A stretch of DNA of 30,356 nucleotides, from IMG/VR virus record IMGVR_UViG_3300042731_005932, positions 1 to 30,356 of that record, one strand, 5' to 3'. Below are positions 3,552-16,796 of the stretch, piece after piece. A model generated the notes under the pieces. That model worked only from the letters and a program-made list of their open reading frames with translations, was not told the DNA's origin and searched no databases. Numbering within the stretch: position 1 is the first letter of the stretch; each line of letters opens with the position of its first letter. The DNA is from a virus. The position numbers were made by a program, and so were the translations under genes.

Positions 3552-3704
3552 ATGAGAAGATTTCAGATTTATTTATCTGAAATACAGCATAATATTCTTG
3601 AAAAAATGGCAAAAGAGAAGGGGATTCCACTCGCTGAATTGATTAGACGTATTTTAGATGAGAAAATTGAGCAGGTGGGGAATGATAAAAGCAATAAAAG
3701 TTAG
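3552..3704 (+). CDS. Small ribbon-helix-helix-like protein in the TnpB element
   Basis: 50 residues: a short strand (MRRFQIYLSE), a helix (QHNILEKMAKEKG) and a second helix (PLAELIRRILDEKIEQ), the usual order of ribbon-helix-helix DNA-binding proteins such as Arc and CopG. GAGGTG is the ribosome binding site. Its 3' end overlaps the tnpB start at 3682 by 23 bases in another frame, so the two are probably coupled. I infer a repressor of the tnpB promoter or a DNA-binding partner; it is not part of the classical IS607 gene set. Confidence 0.75.
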   Translation: MRRFQIYLSEIQHNILEKMAKEKGIPLAELIRRILDEKIEQVGNDKSNKS

Positions 3705-4809
3705 GTTAAAACCTACAGAAGAACAAGAAAAATTATTTTGGAAAGCTTCAGGAACAGCAAGATATATTTACAATTGGGCCTTAGATAAACAATTAGTTAA
3801 TTACAAAAATGGCGGGAAATTTATATCTGACAACGACTTAAGAAAAGAAATAACACAATTAAAGAAAACTGAGTTAGCCTGGTTAAATGAAATATCTAAT
3901 AATGTACCAAAACAAGCTGTTAAAGATTTATGTTTAGCATATAAGAGATTTTTTAAAGGGCAAGCTAAACAGCCCAAATTTAAGAAAAAGAATAAATGTA
4001 AAACAAGTTTTTACAATGACTGTGAGAAATTAAAGGTCAAAGAAAAATCTGTATTGATTGAAAAAATAGGATGGATTGAATTATCAGAACCAAAACGAAT
4101 ACCTGTAGATACAAAATATAAAAATCCTAGAATAACACATGATAGCAAGTATTGGTATTTATCAGTTGGAATTGAAGTAGAAACAGAATATCAAGAATTG
4201 ACAGATAAAACTATTGGAATTGATTTAGGAATAAAAGATTTAGCAATTATTAATACAGGTGAAAAGTATAAAAATATTAATAAAACTAGCTCTGTTAAAA
4301 AGATTAAAAAGAAGCTTAAGAGATTACAAAGAAAAGTAAGTCGTAAATATGAAAAGAATAAAATTAAAATGAAAGGTGGTGAAGTCCGTTATAACAAGAC
4401 TAAAAATATTATGAAAACTAAAAAGAAAATAAAGCTTATTTATAGAAGATTGACTAATATTAGATTGAATAATATTCATCAAATTACTACATCTTTGGTG
4501 AAAACCAAACCACAAAATATAGTAATTGAAGATTTAAATATATCAGGAATGATGAAAAATAGACATTTATCAAAAGCTATACAAGAACAATGTTTATATA
4601 CATTTGCAAATATATTGGAATATAAAACTAAATTTTATGGAATTAATTTAGTCAAGGCTGATAGGTGGTTTCCGAGCTCTAAAATGTGTAGCTCATGCGG
4701 GCAAATAAAGAAAGATTTAAAATTATCAGACCGGATTTATAAATGTGATTGTGGTTTGATGATTGATAGAGATTTAAATGCTGCAATAAATTTATCAAAA
4801 TTAGCATAG
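3682..4809 (+). CDS. tnpB: TnpB, RNA-guided RuvC nuclease of an IS607/IS605-type element
   Basis: 375 residues, full length. The start at 3682 gives MIKAIKVRLKPTEEQEKL, the conserved TnpB N-terminus, and follows the GGTGGGG of the RHH gene; the frame extends 24 bases further upstream without support. RuvC residues are present: D181 in GIDLG, E283 in VIEDLN and D364 in DRDLNAA. The zinc-binding Cys are C336, C339, C355 and C357. TnpB proteins cut DNA next to a transposon-specific motif using a guide RNA from the right end of the element, and help keep the element at its site. Nothing looks inactivated. Confidence 0.95.
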   Translation: MIKAIKVRLKPTEEQEKLFWKASGTARYIYNWALDKQLVNYKNGGKFISDNDLRKEITQLKKTELAWLNEISNNVPKQAVKDLCLAYKRFFKGQAKQPKFKKKNKCKTSFYNDCEKLKVKEKSVLIEKIGWIELSEPKRIPVDTKYKNPRITHDSKYWYLSVGIEVETEYQELTDKTIGIDLGIKDLAIINTGEKYKNINKTSSVKKIKKKLKRLQRKVSRKYEKNKIKMKGGEVRYNKTKNIMKTKKKIKLIYRRLTNIRLNNIHQITTSLVKTKPQNIVIEDLNISGMMKNRHLSKAIQEQCLYTFANILEYKTKFYGINLVKADRWFPSSKMCSSCGQIKKDLKLSDRIYKCDCGLMIDRDLNAAINLSKLA

Positions 4810-4975
4810 TATCATTTGAAAGATAATGTTAATGTGTACCGTGCGTTATACGGGAATTTAAGCCTTTGGAGCGTTATATCAAACCAAAGTAGCTATAATC
4901 TTTAAAGATTATACCAAATGGGACGTAATGAATGAGGAATAAGCTTTATTAACTTTTATAAGTTTTGTTTAACGG
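4810..4975 (+). ncRNA. Likely guide-RNA (omega RNA) scaffold of TnpB
   Basis: The non-coding right end of a TnpB element normally carries the guide-RNA scaffold. Here it contains paired segments: CCGTGCGTTATACGGG near 4840, CTTTGG...CCAAAG (about 4864-4890) and the palindrome ATAATCTTTAAAGATTAT (about 4895-4913). The RNA would probably begin inside the tnpB 3' end and the guide would be whatever follows the right end. Assignment is by position and structure; the 5' end and the guide border are not known. Confidence 0.55.
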
Positions 4976-9773: not shown

Positions 9774-10550
9774 ATGAAAAATTTAATAGAAATAAATAAG
9801 AATGAACTAATAATAACTAGCAAAATGATTGCTGATGGAGTTAACAACAAGCATAAAAATGTAATTCAATTAATCGAAAATCATTTTGAAAGAATAAAAA
9901 AAATAAGAGGAATTCTTCCGTTTGAAACAGAAAAAAAATCAACTAATAATTGGAAAATAGAACGACGAGGACGACCTTCTAAATTTTATTTATTGAATGA
10001 AGTACAGGCGAGTTTTTTAATTTCTTTGATGGACAATAGCGAAGAAGTGTTAGATTTTAAACAATACTTAGTTAAAGAATTTTATAGAATGCGTAGAGCT
10101 TTATTACAAGTAGAGCTTAACAAACAAAACAAAGAATGGCTAGAATCACGAGAAAAAGGTAAAGAAACAAGAAAGAAAGTAGCAAAAGAGTACGAAAACT
10201 ATTTAAAGTATGCTATTGAAAACGGTTCTAAAACCTACGAAAAGAAGCCGCAATTAGCATATTCTCAATTTACCAATATGATAAACAAGTCATTGTTCGA
10301 TTTTGAGTTCAAGCCTAAAGCCGGAACTACTAGAAATTATATGACTAAAGATCAATTAGACATTGTTAATAGTGCTGAAATACTTACACAAAAAATAATA
10401 CAGCAGGAGATCGACAAAGGCACTGAATATCATGAGATATTTAAGACAACTAAGGCAAAAATTAAGACTTATGCTGAGCTTTCGGGCAAGAGTAAGATTA
10501 TAGATATATTAGTTAATAATCAAATCGATATGTTGAATTTGTTGAAATAA
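9774..10550 (+). CDS. Rha-family phage regulatory protein / antirepressor
   Basis: 258 residues. Residues about 8-115 match the Rha domain: ITSKMIADGVNNKHKNVIQLIENH, a basic RRGRPSKFYLLNE and ASFLISLMDNSEEVLDFKQYLVKEFYRM. A coiled helix (115-150) precedes a C-terminal part typical of phage antirepressors. Rha proteins are proposed to control lytic or lysogenic gene expression. It has its own consensus promoter and a stem-loop just after the gene, so it is a one-gene unit. Ribosome binding site GCGAGGG. Confidence 0.85.
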   Translation: MKNLIEINKNELIITSKMIADGVNNKHKNVIQLIENHFERIKKIRGILPFETEKKSTNNWKIERRGRPSKFYLLNEVQASFLISLMDNSEEVLDFKQYLVKEFYRMRRALLQVELNKQNKEWLESREKGKETRKKVAKEYENYLKYAIENGSKTYEKKPQLAYSQFTNMINKSLFDFEFKPKAGTTRNYMTKDQLDIVNSAEILTQKIIQQEIDKGTEYHEIFKTTKAKIKTYAELSGKSKIIDILVNNQIDMLNLLK

Positions 10551-10900: not shown

Positions 10901-11491
10901 ATGGATAATAATAACGATAAATTACTACAGCATAAGCTTAAATGTAAGCTATGCATAAATAAAATAACAAATTACGATGTCGATTTATATACTAATAGTA
11001 AATCAGAATTTGTAATATATGCTCAAGTCAAAGCAAAATTTGATATAACTTTTGACATATTGAAAGAGCATAAATTATTTATACCGCAAATTTACAGTGA
11101 AAAAAGTTTATTAGCAAAAATCAAAGATCATAATTTTAATATAAACAATAATGGCATTAATGAAACAAAGCTATCTAAAAATATTGAACAAATGCAATTG
11201 ATTTGCAATAGCATTATATGGGAAGAAATTCCTGTGTTGTTAAATAAAATTGTGGAAGCATCTAAGTCTGGTAAAATATCAATTAATACTTTAACGAGTA
11301 TACTTGACAAGTTAGTATCTTGTAGCAAAAAGATAGATAAAAATGAAATTAATTTTATTGATATAAATAAAGATGAGTCTTTAAATTGTGATCCCGGCAA
11401 AGGAAATAATATGCAAGGATTAACACAAGAAAATTTTATGAAGACAATTGATGCTTTAAAAAAGGCGAATAAAAGGCTAAAAGATGATTAA
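10901..11491 (+). CDS. Putative small terminase subunit
   Basis: 196 residues, overlapping the large terminase gene by 8 bases, the usual place of the small subunit that recognises phage DNA for packaging. The sequence itself is not diagnostic: CKLCINK near the start, then helical segments including a basic C-terminus (KKANKRLKDD). The ATG at 10901 has no ribosome binding site; TATAAT at 10889-10894 lies so close that a leaderless transcript is possible. Residues CDPGKGN are encoded by a partial copy of the GCCGGC repeat (11394-11404). Confidence 0.5.
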   Translation: MDNNNDKLLQHKLKCKLCINKITNYDVDLYTNSKSEFVIYAQVKAKFDITFDILKEHKLFIPQIYSEKSLLAKIKDHNFNINNNGINETKLSKNIEQMQLICNSIIWEEIPVLLNKIVEASKSGKISINTLTSILDKLVSCSKKIDKNEINFIDINKDESLNCDPGKGNNMQGLTQENFMKTIDALKKANKRLKDD

Positions 11492-12995
11492 AGAAAAAAT
11501 TAGACAACATTCAAAATTACCAGGTGAATATTTGTTAAAGCCAACTACAGAAGCATTAAGAAATAAGCTTGAAAATTTAGATAAAAAAACTAGAAAAGAA
11601 ATAGTATTGCAAAATCCTGCATTATTTGGCGAATATTATATTAAGCCATATACTCGTAAATGGAACAGTAATACAGCTAATCATCAATATTATATGCTTG
11701 AAGAAGCTATGATTAATAACAATTTGGTGATTCATGTACCAGTTGAACATGCAAAGTCGACCTGGTTCAGTTTAGTATTACCTCTATTCTTTCTTTGCCG
11801 GGATCGAAATACACAAGGGTGCATCTTATCAAACACTTCTCGCCAAGCAAAGGGATTTCTAAGACTTATAAAATGGCATATAGAGTACAATCCACGATTT
11901 AAAGAAGATTTTGGAGACTATATCATACCTCATAAGCCAACCAAAAATGACGATGCTGGCAAATGGACAACAGAAGAGATAATTATAAAAAGAGATCAGG
12001 GATATCAATCAAAAGATCCTACAATTGTCGCAATTGGCACAGGTGGAGCAGTAATGGGAGCTAGGCTTGATTGGGTAATCGCTGATGATATTATAGATCT
12101 ATCTAATTCACAAACAGATATACTTAGAAAAAAAGTTGAGGATTGGTGGCTTGAAATAATCGACGCAAGGGTAATTGATGGTGGACGTAAAATTCTTTTA
12201 GGGACATTGCAACATACTAAGGATTTATTATGTGTTCTTTCAGATAAAAACGAATATGCTTATGTGCATTTGTCGGCTCTCGACTCAGATCAAACAACAA
12301 CTTTGTGGCCGGAGCAATGGCCCTTGTCAAGAGTATTGGCAAAAAAAGACTCTATCGGTACAATTAAGTTCAACAAAGTAATGCAGAATGATAGAAAATC
12401 AATTTCAGCAAAATTGCTAGATCCTAATTGGTTGAATTATTATGACAACATGCCTCCGAGGCTAAAAATATATATAGGCATTGATCCCGCGGTCGCTGAC
12501 GATAAAACAACAGCAGAAAGCAAGCGACAAGATAAGTTTGGGTTAGCTGTTATTGGATTTGATGGAGTTAAGGCATATCTGATAGAAGAATTTGAGGATT
12601 GGTTAACATTCCCAGAACAATTAAAACTAGTTGACCGATATAATAGAAAGTATAAGCCATATAAAATGGGCGTTGAAAGTGTTCAGTATCAGCGAGTATT
12701 GGCACAACAAGCATTTATATTAGGCAGTTTACCGCCGATTATGCCAGTTAACGTCGGTACACAAAGCAAGGCTACTAGGATAGAATCTTTTAGTGTATAT
12801 TGTGAGACTAAAAGATTTTGGATAAATAAAACCCATAAACTATTTGAAAATGAATTTTTGGAATTTGAGCCTGGGGGTAAGTCTCCTAATATTCTAGACG
12901 CTTGTTGCGTTGCTATGATTATGATACATGGTAGGGGCAGTTTGAAGGATGTTGAGCTGGTGCCTAGTAGTAATAAGGATTGTAATGTATGGTGA
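11484..12995 (+). CDS. terL: Terminase large subunit
   Basis: 503 residues, ATPase then nuclease. The Walker A equivalent is PVEHAKST (K91), lacking the usual glycines but acceptable for terminases; Walker B is WVIADD (D201, D202). The RuvC-like nuclease is intact: D334 in IGIDPAVA, E398 in GVESVQYQ and D472 in PNILDACC. It pumps DNA into the prohead through the portal and cuts it. Its start overlaps the upstream gene. A promoter for the next gene lies inside its last codons. Confidence 0.93.
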   Translation: MIKEKIRQHSKLPGEYLLKPTTEALRNKLENLDKKTRKEIVLQNPALFGEYYIKPYTRKWNSNTANHQYYMLEEAMINNNLVIHVPVEHAKSTWFSLVLPLFFLCRDRNTQGCILSNTSRQAKGFLRLIKWHIEYNPRFKEDFGDYIIPHKPTKNDDAGKWTTEEIIIKRDQGYQSKDPTIVAIGTGGAVMGARLDWVIADDIIDLSNSQTDILRKKVEDWWLEIIDARVIDGGRKILLGTLQHTKDLLCVLSDKNEYAYVHLSALDSDQTTTLWPEQWPLSRVLAKKDSIGTIKFNKVMQNDRKSISAKLLDPNWLNYYDNMPPRLKIYIGIDPAVADDKTTAESKRQDKFGLAVIGFDGVKAYLIEEFEDWLTFPEQLKLVDRYNRKYKPYKMGVESVQYQRVLAQQAFILGSLPPIMPVNVGTQSKATRIESFSVYCETKRFWINKTHKLFENEFLEFEPGGKSPNILDACCVAMIMIHGRGSLKDVELVPSSNKDCNVW

Positions 12996-13008
12996 TATAT
13001 AGTATAAT
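12980..13008 (+). promoter_or_regulatory. Promoter of the second Rha gene
   Basis: TTGTAA at 12980-12985 and TATAAT at 13003-13008, 17 bases apart, overlapping the stop of the terminase gene. A transcript would start near 13015 and its leader would consist almost entirely of the two hairpins described next. Confidence 0.6.
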
Positions 13009-13024
13009 AGTATTAAGTTAATAA

Positions 13025-13139
13025 ATTATATGGATTATATTGATTCCCAGCCAATATAATCCATATAATAAGTTATAGTATCTTTGTAAATTCGAGCTGG
13101 GAAATTTGGATTTACAAAGATACTTTTATTATATGGAGG
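13025..13139 (+). promoter_or_regulatory. Two-hairpin leader with complementary loops
   Basis: Hairpin 1 pairs 13025-13042 with 13052-13069, 18 perfect pairs, with loop ATTCCCAGC. Hairpin 2 pairs 13077-13093 with 13108-13124, 17 pairs including one G-U, with a loop containing GCTGGGAA. TTCCCAGC (13044-13051) and GCTGGGAA (13096-13103) are exact complements, so the loops can kiss over 8 bases. In addition CCATATAATA (13061-13070, 3' arm of hairpin 1) is complementary to TATTATATGG (13127-13136), which runs into the ribosome binding site GGAGG at 13135-13139. I infer a structured 5' leader controlling translation of the Rha gene; a DNA-level site remains possible. Confidence 0.6.
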
Positions 13140-13143
13140 AAAT

Positions 13144-13845
13144 ATGAATAGAGAATTAGGATTAATTTTATTAAGACATGATGGGTTTAATTGGGTATCA
13201 TTGGATATAGCTAAATGGGCAAACAAAGATCATAAAAATGTAATGAGAGATATTAGAGAAGAAATTATAGAGCTCAATAGCAATCATATATCGACGGAGC
13301 TCATTTTTGAGCTCGTTGAAAATACTAATGTTAACAGCATAATATCAAATGCGCATTATAAACTTTCCAAAAAAGGCATGTTACAAATTGCTTCAAGATA
13401 TAATGCTAAAATTAGACATTTATTAATAGAAAAAGTTGAAGAATTATCAAATCAAATTCAAAAATACAAAAATGTTAAACAAGATAAAGAACATCAAAAA
13501 CAAGCTATGACATTATTGCACGATTTATTGCCAACCGAAGAACAAACAGCAAAAATAAATTATATTAAAGCTAATTCAGTAACAAACAAAGCTGTTAGTA
13601 ATGCTTTTGGATTTAAAAAAATGGTAAAGAAAAATGATATGAGTGAAGACATGAAAGATTTACGTAAAATGGTATTAGAGGATTATGTAAAATTATTTGA
13701 AATTACACAAGATACAAGCGTGATTAAAACATTGCTATATAATAAATATACACCTAAATTATTAAATAAAAGGGAAAGATCATGCAGTTGTGAAAACGTT
13801 ACCGGAGATATAGATGCAGGCGGAAGCGTGAAAATAAAAAGATAA
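13144..13845 (+). CDS. Second Rha-family regulatory protein
   Basis: 233 residues. The N-terminal 100 residues carry the Rha pattern VSLDIAKWANKDHKNVMRDIREEI, then HYKLSKKGMLQIASRYNAKIRHLLIEKVEEL. A coiled segment and a helical C-terminus (NSVTNKAVSNAFGFKKM) follow, different from the first Rha protein. The strong TATGGAGGA ribosome binding site sits at the foot of the two-hairpin leader. A bidirectional terminator closes this one-gene unit, so it is expressed separately from the terminase and head genes around it. Confidence 0.8.
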   Translation: MNRELGLILLRHDGFNWVSLDIAKWANKDHKNVMRDIREEIIELNSNHISTELIFELVENTNVNSIISNAHYKLSKKGMLQIASRYNAKIRHLLIEKVEELSNQIQKYKNVKQDKEHQKQAMTLLHDLLPTEEQTAKINYIKANSVTNKAVSNAFGFKKMVKKNDMSEDMKDLRKMVLEDYVKLFEITQDTSVIKTLLYNKYTPKLLNKRERSCSCENVTGDIDAGGSVKIKR

Positions 13846-13881
13846 TAACAATAAATTTAAATAAATAGTTTACATTACATA

Positions 13882-13910
13882 AAAACACCTAACTAAAAAC
13901 TAGGTGTTTT
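13882..13910. terminator. Bidirectional terminator after the second Rha gene
   Basis: AAAACACCTA and TAGGTGTTTT form a 10-bp stem with loop ACTAAAAAC. A-runs before and T-runs after allow it to work in both directions. Confidence 0.8.
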
Positions 13911-13911
13911 A

Positions 13912-13956
13912 TTATGCTCTAAAACAAGTTATGCTATAATAAAAATAAAAGCATAA
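13912..13956 (+). promoter_or_regulatory. Late-gene promoter with three TTATGCT sites
   Basis: TATAAT at 13935-13940 has no good -35 box. TTATGCT occurs at 13912-13918 and 13929-13935, and inverted (AGCATAA) at 13950-13956, flanking the -10 box. A regulator binding these heptamers could activate or repress the head operon that starts at 13969. Confidence 0.5.
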
Positions 13957-13968
13957 AGGAGCAACAAT

Positions 13969-14415
13969 ATGACAAAGAAAAATGATGAATTAGAAAATGA
14001 AAATCAGATTGAAATTGAAATTTTGAAAGAAGAAATTGAAAAATTAAACAAAAAAATGGATAAAATTAAAACTAGTAAATCCAATATTGGCAATAATGAC
14101 AGTGTGCTAGATGAAAATGCAGAGTTTATGAAACTTGCAGATGCTTGCGTTAAATATGATACAAGAATGAATCATATTAAAACAATGAGTTATAGTGCGC
14201 CGAATGGAGAAAATTTCCCATTGTTTTATTTAAAGCAAATGAAAACTAAAGCATTTTTGAGAATGTGTGAACTGGCAGAAAAAGAAGGGATAACAAGTAG
14301 GAAAAAACCTAAATTTGGGATTGTTTCAGAAGAAGGCAAGAAAAATATGAATGCCCATGCCGGCAAAGAAGAAAGATATGAACCGAAATCAAGTGGAGGA
14401 TCGAAAAATGTATGA
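13969..14415 (+). CDS. Hypothetical coiled-coil protein, first gene of the head operon
   Basis: 148 residues. Residues 5-40 are a charged coiled coil (NELENENQIEIEILKEEIEKL). The middle (MKLADACVKYDTRMNHIKTMS) is helical and the end is basic and glycine-rich. AAAGGAG ribosome binding site. Position suggests a packaging or head-assembly helper; no family recognised. A GCCGGC repeat near the end encodes HAGKEE, and the last codons overlap the next gene. Confidence 0.7.
   Translation: MTKKNDELENENQIEIEILKEEIEKLNKKMDKIKTSKSNIGNNDSVLDENAEFMKLADACVKYDTRMNHIKTMSYSAPNGENFPLFYLKQMKTKAFLRMCELAEKEGITSRKKPKFGIVSEEGKKNMNAHAGKEERYEPKSSGGSKNV
14358..14368. repeat. GCCGGC repeat inside the coiled-coil gene
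   Basis: TGCCGGCAAAG, the core and right half of the palindrome, followed by AAGAAAGATATG. The ATG at 14378 is in frame with the next gene and could be an alternative start. Confidence 0.5.
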
Positions 14416-14971
14416 TTCAAAACTTGATACATTGCTGCACAGAAACAGAGTCGAATATTGGATATTAAGATTTTTATTATTGTTAAAAGAAAATTTCGTA
14501 GTTACTGAGCTTCCTTTGCTGGAGAAAAGTTTTATACACAGAGCAAATATTCATGATAAAAGCAAATTGGGAAAATATGAAAAAGGTTACTATGACATAT
14601 TTACTTCTAAGCTTAAACAATGCGAATATGGTTCTGATGAATACAAAAAGTATTTAGACAAAATGCAAATTGCAATTAAGCACCATTATAACAATAATAG
14701 GCATCATCCTGAATATAGCGGATATAATAATATGACTACATTGGATAAAATAGAAATGCTGTGCGATTGGTTAGCAGCTACAGAAAGAAATAAAAACGGG
14801 AATATTATTAAAAGCATTGAAATAGGTAAAATGAAATATAAATATGACGAAAAAGAGTATGATATATTACTAAATACTGCTAAAATGTTACAAGAAAATA
14901 AAGCAGATAAAAATATTAATAGTCTATTTATAGAAGTTGTAAAATTTATGAAAGAAAATTATGGGAAATAA
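14408..14971 (+). CDS. DUF5662-family phage protein
   Basis: 187 residues. Recognised by the family pattern: HDKSKLGKYEKGYY (about 55-68), a helix, then KHHYNNNRHHPEYSG and MTTLDKIEMLCDWLAATER. The conserved His and Asp residues suggest a metal site like that of HD-type hydrolases, but no activity is established. The start at 14408 follows GGAGGA by 7 bases; an in-frame ATG at 14378 has a weaker site. It overlaps the upstream gene and precedes the portal gene. A role in virion assembly is not implied by the family. Confidence 0.8.
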   Translation: MYDSKLDTLLHRNRVEYWILRFLLLLKENFVVTELPLLEKSFIHRANIHDKSKLGKYEKGYYDIFTSKLKQCEYGSDEYKKYLDKMQIAIKHHYNNNRHHPEYSGYNNMTTLDKIEMLCDWLAATERNKNGNIIKSIEIGKMKYKYDEKEYDILLNTAKMLQENKADKNINSLFIEVVKFMKENYGK

Positions 14972-14990
14972 CAACAAAAGGGGTAATTAA

Positions 14991-16796
14991 ATGGCGACAA
15001 GAAGAGGTGAACTTGGAGGCACTGGCAGAAGCTATTCAGCTAGATTTCAATATTCATTGCCGACAGATGAATATCTGTCAACTTTGCAATGGCCTAGCGA
15101 TATTGAAATTTACAATAAAATGGAAAGATCAGATGCCCAAGTAAAAGCAACCTTATTAATGTTAGAATTGCCGATAAGGTCTACAAGCTGGTATTTGAAA
15201 TCAGCAGATAATTCAAGTCAAGCAAAAAAAAATAAAGAATTTATTGAAGATAACTTATTTAAGGGTCCGCCGTCGGGTATGAAAAATCATTTTGACGATT
15301 TTATAAAAGAGTCATGTTCGATGTTTACATATGGACATGCGGTATTTGAAAAAGTTTTTGAAGTTAAAAACAATTTCTTGCAATGGAAAAAGTTTGCACC
15401 AAGGCCACAATCAACTTTATATGATTTTTTATATAATAAATTTGGCGATTTAACAGATGTAGAACAATGGATATATCAACCATCTTACACTAGAGTTAAA
15501 ATGCCAAAACAAAAATTGATTGTATTTACGCATGATATGAAACAAGGAGACTATAGAGGTCGCAGTGTGCTAAGAACCGCCTATAAGCATTGGTCAATAA
15601 AAGATTTCTTGTATAAGATAACTAATATTGGAATAGAAAGAAATTTTGTAGGGACTCCAGTAATAACCCTGCCTCAAAATTATGATGAAGCTGATTATGC
15701 AAGAGCAAAAAAAATAGTGACAGATCTTAGGAGCAATCAATATGGCGGGATTACGTTACCTGAAGGTTTTTTATTAGAACTTTTCGAGGGCAAGCGCACG
15801 ATGGTAGACGTATTACCATACATAGAACATCAAGACTTGTTAATTTCTAGGAGCATTCTAGCTCAATTTATGAATTTGGGTTCAAATAGTGCCGGTAGTT
15901 TTGCATTATCTAAAGACCAAACTGAATTGTTTTTAATGATGTTGGGTGCAATAGCTAAGTATATAGCAAATGTAATAAATACTGAAGCTATCCCTCAATT
16001 GATTGAGTTTAATTTTAATAGTGATTTATATCCTAAACTTTGTTTTAAGCCTTTAGGCAATAATAAAATACTTGAAACATTAAAAAATATGGTCGATGGA
16101 AATCTTATAATTCCTGACAGAGATTTAGAGGATTGGTTACGGGACATGATGGAATTACCAGAGAAATCCAAAGAGTCGAATAGCTATAATAGTTCTTTTG
16201 CCGGCAAAGGAGAAAATCATGATTCAGAAACTTTTGAAAAAAATAAGATTGAGATACAAAATAATAAAAACCAAGATAAAACAGATGAGAACAAAGATGA
16301 AGAAATCCTAGAAAAAGAAAAAGAAATAGGTGAAAATAAGCAAGAAAATAACAAAGACGAAAAAATTAAAAAAATGTCTGAACCTGCAAGCTTTCTAAAC
16401 ATAGAAAAGGATTTTGACAATATAGAATCTAAGTTTTTTAATGCGGCTAGAATAATAGTTGAAAAGCAAATAAAAGATTTAGTCAATAAAGCTAAAAATA
16501 TAAAGTTATCCGAAATAGCAAAAATAGAAGTCGGATATAAAGGCGCAATGACAAACTTTGTAATTGATGCATTTGAGGACGCTTTTAACAGAGGCGTTAA
16601 GCAAATGCAAAAAGAAATTAAAACAGATTACAAGCCAAAGCTAGACAATGATATACTAAAAGCGAAGGCTAGCATAGTAGCTAACAATTTATCAGAAAGA
16701 ATTAAAACTAGATTTTTAAATGAGTATTTAATTAGTAAAGATTTAGGAGATACAGAAAAAATAACTAAAAAAATCATGAGGAATATTAAAAAATGA
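14991..16796 (+). CDS. Portal protein (Mu gp29/DUF935-like) with a minor-head-protein extension
   Basis: 601 residues. Residues 1 to about 395 are a Mu-type portal domain (TLQWPSDIEIYNKMERSDAQV, SMFTYGHAVFEKVFEV, FTHDMKQGDYRGRSVLRTAYKHW, ISRSILAQFMNLGS). The portal is the dodecameric ring through which DNA enters the head. Residues about 395-465 are a low-complexity Lys/Glu/Asn linker in which a GCCGGC repeat encodes SFAGKGE. Residues about 465-601 are helical and look like the N-terminal half of a MuF/SPP1 gp7-type minor head protein, whose second half is the next gene in another frame. Confidence 0.88.
   Translation: MATRRGELGGTGRSYSARFQYSLPTDEYLSTLQWPSDIEIYNKMERSDAQVKATLLMLELPIRSTSWYLKSADNSSQAKKNKEFIEDNLFKGPPSGMKNHFDDFIKESCSMFTYGHAVFEKVFEVKNNFLQWKKFAPRPQSTLYDFLYNKFGDLTDVEQWIYQPSYTRVKMPKQKLIVFTHDMKQGDYRGRSVLRTAYKHWSIKDFLYKITNIGIERNFVGTPVITLPQNYDEADYARAKKIVTDLRSNQYGGITLPEGFLLELFEGKRTMVDVLPYIEHQDLLISRSILAQFMNLGSNSAGSFALSKDQTELFLMMLGAIAKYIANVINTEAIPQLIEFNFNSDLYPKLCFKPLGNNKILETLKNMVDGNLIIPDRDLEDWLRDMMELPEKSKESNSYNSSFAGKGENHDSETFEKNKIEIQNNKNQDKTDENKDEEILEKEKEIGENKQENNKDEKIKKMSEPASFLNIEKDFDNIESKFFNAARIIVEKQIKDLVNKAKNIKLSEIAKIEVGYKGAMTNFVIDAFEDAFNRGVKQMQKEIKTDYKPKLDNDILKAKASIVANNLSERIKTRFLNEYLISKDLGDTEKITKKIMRNIKK
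16195..16210. repeat. GCCGGC palindrome at the portal linker
   Basis: CTTTTGCCGGCAAAGG, one base from a perfect palindrome, then AGAAAATCATG. It sits exactly where the portal domain ends and the linker begins. The ATG that follows is out of frame with both portal and MuF parts. Confidence 0.7.

Follow-up and report, generated by a model that had tools for sequence, protein, structure and literature searches.

Results

The window analyzed here, meaning the whole stretch of 30,356 bases, is an environmental phage contig, and the element that we describe is present letter-identical in the 57-kb record G001. Its upstream neighbor is the gene for the terminase large subunit, terL (11484..12995, +; phrog_38, E = 1.7e-70). 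A predicted sigma-70 promoter, TTGTAA-17-TATAAT (12980..13008, +), has 10 of 12 consensus matches; its -35 falls within the 3' end of terL, and transcription is predicted to start near 13015. Hairpin 1 (hp1; 13025..13069, +) has 18 perfect pairs and a 9-nt loop, ATTCCCAGC, at 13043-13051, and it is separated by a 7-nt linker from hairpin 2 (hp2; 13077..13124, +), which has 20 pairs with G-T allowed. The hp1 loop holds the kissing strand UUCCCAGC (13044..13051, +; DNA TTCCCAGC), and the hp2 loop holds its exact complement GCUGGGAA (13096..13103, +; DNA GCTGGGAA), below which UCGAG (13092-13096) and UUUGG (13105-13109) form U.G, C-G and G.U pairs. A U-rich tract like that of an intrinsic terminator lies immediately 3' of hp2 (13122..13131, +), followed by a ribosome binding site, GGAGG, with the ATG of the cargo gene (13135..13146, +). 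The cargo gene encodes a Rha-family regulator (13144..13845, +; PF09669, E = 8e-10), and the portal gene (14991-16796; phrog_113) lies downstream of it.

Two further features of the window were recorded. A second Rha-family gene lies upstream of terL (9774-10550, +; PF09669, E = 3.5e-15), and the region before it yielded no kissing element. A RAGATH-18 RNA (4863-4939, +; 59 bits) lies directly after a TnpB/Cas12f-like transposase gene (3658-4809), and because of this placement it may belong to the TnpB/Cas12f-like element, for example as a guide RNA.

The first-pass annotation had described hp1 as an 18-bp perfect hairpin and the two loops as exactly complementary over 8 bases (13044-13051 versus 13096-13103), and both descriptions were confirmed; the hp2 that it placed at 13077-13124 is also present, but with 20 pairs when G-T is allowed instead of 17. 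It had further judged the design unlikely by chance, and the controls agreed. The RNA fold of the window element has an energy of -48.3 kcal/mol (z = -6.45), which none of 200 shuffles equaled. When the window was scanned de novo for neighboring pairs of long hairpins whose loops are complementary over at least 7 bases, the kissing element was the only site returned (the other strand repeats the same site, as expected), and this design had no match in 4.55 Mb of dinucleotide-shuffled window. The observation in the window is real and does not reflect chance.

We found 14 related elements, either in different environmental phages or at another place in the same genome. A TerL search gave L005, whose TerL is 92% identical to that of the window; the stems of its element are wholly different yet still paired, and its loops are changed yet matching (CCCACGC/GCGUGGG). 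The genome of the window's phage carries a second copy (G001:19617-19717) ahead of another Rha gene, and pattern scans of IMG/VR added L031, L048, L134, L103, L191/L192, L194 and L167. The covariance model R1, built on a six-copy seed, recovered L005 and L103 at 68 and 74 bits, neither of which was in the seed. A TerL search based on L134, in which the RNA was not used, yielded L323 (UUACCGGC/GCCGGUAA) and L324 (UCGCAGC/GCUGCGA), with both loops changed in each, and a whole-record scan revealed a second copy, L342 (UGCGUCC/GGACGCA), in the L103 phage. Scanning 2.75 Mb of retrieved DNA for structure alone returned all elements but one, the new element L113 (UUGAUGGC/GCCAUCAA) and one apparent false positive; the element missed at that setting was L335, which has only six contiguous matched loop bases. 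L323, L324 and L113 were all recovered by searches free of loop letters (TerL and de novo structural). Because several of the collection scans were baited with loop letters, the 14 related elements probably underestimate the size of the family. Every relative is from a metagenomic phage, the set includes one decayed element (L335), and several of the copies have common ancestry, so that the combined p-values below are approximate.

Other collections gave no further members. No DNA similar to the window element was matched in 50,697 annotated phages, where a relative used as query gave only weak chance pieces, and in 84,980 bacterial and archaeal genomes the search pattern matched eight stretches, none with the structure. 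Two matches in 398 genomes of one bacterial phylum were read as chance from their sequences; a covariance-model search of two single genomes and an inspection of five annotated phages with related genes found no element. No element followed terL in TerL relatives at 54-69% identity to the TerL of the window or at 33-65% identity to that of L134. Among the latter, L335 carries a decayed copy 3 kb upstream (1967-2075, +), with no promoter, no cargo, a mismatched hp2 and one G-U in the kiss, and this copy is a natural negative control.

The aligned copies revealed extensive covariation. In an 11-row alignment, 93.7% of the cells pair and 27 of 45 pairs are changed on both sides; none of 500 shuffles reached any of these measures, and the pairing signal was destroyed when the partner was slid by 1–3 columns. 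Two-sided changes were present in both stems (13 of 18 pairs in hp1 and 12 of 19 in hp2). Seven consecutive positions of the kissing helix, counted without gaps, are Watson-Crick in all nine copies compared, with four pair types at one position and three at another. The kissing words, which differ in their letters, include UUCCCAGC, CCCACGC, UUCCCCAC, UUCCCGAC, UUCCCGCC, UUCCCGUC, UUACCGGC, UCGCAGC, UGCGUCC and UUGAUGGC. An uncompensated change in a single loop, named beforehand as evidence against a kissing RNA, was not seen: intact copies retain 7–8 paired loop bases, and the decayed copy has 8 with one G-U. These two-sided changes in the stems and in the loop-loop helix strongly support the kissing-loop RNA structure proposed by the first-pass annotation.

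Close relatives illustrate how the words change. L322 and L323 have TerL proteins 97% identical and a nearly letter-identical promoter and lower hp2 stem; hp1 and both loops differ between them, and the changes are compensated. Two phages have two copies each, with kissing words that differ between the copies. The calculated energies of own versus cross pairs were -13.0/-13.0 versus -8.0/-6.3 kcal/mol for the copies in G001 and -14.5/-12.0 versus -2.6/-4.5 kcal/mol for those in G013.

The U.G, C-G and G.U pairs below loop 2 are invariant in 10 of 10 rows, and most copies have UCGAG and UUGG on either side of loop 2. Such conserved UCGAG/UUUGG letters could form a pocket at the kissing loops, as in a riboswitch that binds a ligand or protein or in an operator like that of a coat protein. 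We consider this unlikely, as L342 keeps the architecture with the UCGAG/UUUGG motif wholly absent, so that the pocket is not conserved across all members; moreover, stems of 17–20 bp leave little to switch, and the cargo genes are unrelated.

The dimensions of the element are nearly fixed. In most copies hp1 is 43 nt long (17 bp and a 9-nt loop), with 16 or 18 bp in the rest, and hp2 mostly measures 46–48 nt. A sigma-70 promoter with at least 10 of 12 matches and a -10 ending 7–17 nt before hp1 was present in 13 of the 15 copies scored; the match is weaker in L191, and the decayed L335 has none. Just before hp1 of L103 (reverse strand), the spacer of the promoter includes GGGAATCAATG, which is complementary over 11 bases to CATTGATTCCC at the tip of hp1; this was noticed in the L103 copy only.

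A U-rich tract follows all 12 hp2-type hairpins tested, compared with 27 of 169 other long hairpins in the same phages (p = 2e-9), and hp2 thus resembles an intrinsic terminator. The region 13122-13131 is the only terminator-like site within 12800-15100. In the G+C-richer phage of L113, hp2 ends in GGGCG-TTTTTT, a canonical terminator; in most copies the stems are A+T-rich, so that the terminator may be weak. The L113 phage also has a lone hp2-type terminator hairpin with the loop GUCGGGAA at a gene end, without hp1 (L113:7236-7291, +), and the matching loop UUCCCGAC was not found in that phage. A CRISPR-like array with 30–32-nt repeats (CTTGAACCTTAACAAGAGTTGTATTGAAAC) every ~66 nt is borne by the same phage (L113:7392-7734, +).

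An alternative partner of the hp1 3' arm is the linker, with which it can pair in a register that hardly varies. In the window the candidate helix joins TATAA (13064-13068) to TTATA (13073-13077; helix 13064..13077, +). Own arm and linker form 5.4 bp versus 3.4 bp when swapped (combined Fisher p ~3e-5, with 10 copies treated as independent); the helix reaches 6–8 bp in L103, L191, L113 and L335 and is weak in the window copy. It is possibly a second state of the RNA. This conserved helix does not overlap hp2; the analysis turned up no mutually exclusive pairing that could serve hp2 as an antiterminator.

The same arm had suggested to the first-pass annotation a translational switch, in which 13061-13070 pairs with 13127-13136 before the ribosome site. 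The match is real, and in the window copy it extends to 11 bases, a length reached in none of 500 shuffles, but it lacks conservation, with 12 of the 13 other copies at, or close to, the level of shuffles. Because the complement is private to the window copy, and because opening an 18-bp hairpin for it would be unfavorable, we regard translational switching as very improbable.

The genes downstream of the element vary and include those for Rha, Dam, N6/N4 methyltransferases, an ERCC4-domain protein (nuclease) and DUF6948, or there is none. In L031, L048, L134, L323, L324 and L325, the element lies between a near-identical terL and a common zinc-ribbon gene. The cargo at this site is absent in L031, which keeps the element all the same, and consists of Dam in L048, a decayed gene in L134, a 122-amino acid ORF in L325, and Dam plus a 134-amino acid ORF in L324. 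The element can thus persist without cargo, and the control of Rha specifically, as first proposed, is not supported, since the same element precedes methyltransferases, the ERCC4 nuclease, DUF6948 or no cargo elsewhere. In L327 the terL frame runs into intein-like sequence and then another ORF (L327:1564-3817, +), with the kissing element downstream as in relatives.

With its promoter and terminator-like hairpin in a plastic position behind terL, where the cargo changes, the element might be a composite that mainly serves modular gene shuffling, similar to the PeSL cassettes considered below: it would stop transcription arriving from upstream, launch a fresh transcript and provide short homology for cassette exchange. 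This would leave hp1, the compensated kissing helix and the fixed sizes unexplained; the promoter stands before, not after, the terminator hairpin, and the stem and loop letters have diverged too far between lineages to offer shared homology. We think such a role for the element improbable.

Many copies lie directly after terL, a position that would suit a feature acting as DNA, whether a cruciform, a protein operator or a packaging (pac/cos) site. Yet the wobble pairs are invariant (10 of 10), which argues for RNA and against the cruciform that had been raised as an alternative, as do the U-tract on one strand and the promoter in register. A packaging site, also raised earlier, is disfavored because copies occur elsewhere in the genome, beside lysis or other genes (L020, L194, L342 and L113). 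Function at the DNA level is therefore extremely improbable.

Discussion

Comparison of the copies in sequence established near-fixed stems, a kissing helix, a promoter, a U-tract, changing cargo and words that differ within a genome. The element probably represents a novel type of on-off control by RNA, and its best reading is a unit of promoter, kissing RNA and terminator that would act as an attenuator or a small RNA. We put at roughly 0.5 the probability that it combines kissing-controlled attenuation with a free RNA of ~110 nt at the head of exchangeable accessory-gene cassettes.

In the mechanism that we propose, the element would be a self-contained transcription unit heading cassettes of exchangeable phage accessory genes. 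Transcription from a host sigma-70 promoter would begin right before hp1, and the RNA would fold hp1 first and hp2 afterwards. Because hp2 is built like an intrinsic terminator, two products would be expected, a discrete RNA of ~110–115 nt and, by read-through, an mRNA of the cargo gene. The 7–8-bp loop-loop helix ties hp1 to hp2 and could thereby set the frequency of termination at hp2. Most likely, loop 2 emerging from the polymerase would be caught by the folded loop 1, and closure of hp2 would be delayed or favored. The freed leader RNA, carrying the same loops, could compete in trans and serve as a feedback sensor that responds only to its cassette of origin. Several steps of this model are inferred, namely that cells transcribe the element, that hp2 terminates, that the kiss exerts control and in which direction, and any action in trans.

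Attenuation is suggested because the parts (promoter, terminator-like hp2, ribosome site and gene) are those of an attenuator, including a leader that ends in a hairpin and U-tract ahead of a gene, and because the kiss ties loop 1 to the terminator loop. The lone hp2 of the L113 phage, lacking hp1, counts against it, as do the A+T-rich hp2 stems of most copies, the missing antiterminator helix and geometry: fitting a folded 17-bp hp1, a 19-bp hp2 and a kiss of all 8 bp into one molecule is difficult over a linker of 7–11 nt. By this rigid-helix estimate, which is reasoned and not computed, stems of 17–20 bp would not kiss end to end intramolecularly unless the weak top of hp2 opens, and the geometry favors partial or intermolecular kissing.

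For this reason we give some weight to a homodimer or multimer, in which the kiss would join loop 1 to loop 2 of a second molecule and the cargo would be a passenger behind a leaky terminator. Hairpins of near-fixed size, full 8-bp loops that by geometric reasoning fit intermolecular end-to-end kissing better than intramolecular kissing, copies within one genome that use differing words and the retention of the element without cargo in L031 are all consistent with this arrangement, and phage-encoded ornate RNAs have established intermolecular kissing loops with covariation (PMC12286853). However, opening of the weak top of hp2 would permit an intramolecular kiss, and we hold dimerization to be a possible but minority explanation.

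A more tentative reading is that each cassette has a private loop-loop address, by which leader RNAs would recognize themselves in cis or, as copies, in trans and thereby signal gene dosage or a superinfection that brings in the same cassette; compensated loop changes would give rise to new specificities. Such a system, which we offer as speculation, would resemble plasmid incompatibility groups held in one short transcript and controlling phage DNA-modifying genes.

The element represents an RNA family absent from Rfam whose loop-loop helix is backed by compensated changes. Its letters are nearly free and its geometry is fixed, and relatives with TerL proteins 97% identical already differ in kissing words; these properties make the function of a phage kissing RNA directly testable by loop-swap reporters. 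The copies also provide a natural set of loop pairs that pair better with themselves than with one another. In addition, the element may account for the separate expression control of accessory genes that lie within a late operon.

None of the named known systems matches the element in full. At the gathering threshold of Rfam 15, no family matched it, RAGATH-18 being the only match and lying elsewhere in the window, and permissive thresholds gave only sub-threshold chance matches to microRNA and other models. The promoter early stem-loops (PeSLs) of T4-type phages were reportedly described by Arbiol in 2010 and Comeau in 2014. In their motif order, a stem-loop terminator stands before or around the early promoter, and we know of no kissing partner for them. 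The present element differs in having a promoter followed by two near-fixed-size hairpins with covarying complementary loops; the T4-type motif order is absent, and the neighbors are TerL and portal genes of non-T4 phages. PeSLs, a concept cited in PMC4503421, are nevertheless the nearest known idea, since both they and the element are short intergenic units of promoter and stem-loop or terminator in plastic, gene-exchanging phage regions.

In staphylococcal and streptococcal plasmids such as pIP501, attenuation is controlled by antisense RNA (PMC8383071). The attenuators of pT181 and pIP501 and ColE1-type recognition share with the element a terminator-ending leader, loop-loop contacts and rapid change of loop specificity among relatives. 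Unlike in those systems, both kissing loops here lie in one transcript, and neither a counter-transcribed RNA nor a rep gene, as in plasmid copy control, was found for the element.

ROOL and GOLLD kiss between molecules with covariation (PMC12286853). These RNAs, the phi29 packaging RNA and the element are phage RNAs with kissing loops, a covarying loop helix and words that differ by phage, and the two mutually complementary loops of a phi29-type pRNA are present here. The element differs from them in comprising only two hairpins, ~110 nt, and then a gene, without an Rfam match, and its copies are not tied to the terminase (L020, L194, L342 and L113), which lowers the likelihood of a ring-forming RNA tied to a packaging ATPase and needed for packaging, as phi29-type pRNA is. 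The HK022 put RNA antiterminators comprise a pair of neighboring hairpins immediately behind a promoter of the phage, and to our knowledge they have no loop-loop complement. The element resembles put in placing an adjacent hairpin pair directly 3' of a phage promoter, but it joins the two loops by a complement, and its second hairpin is itself terminator-like.
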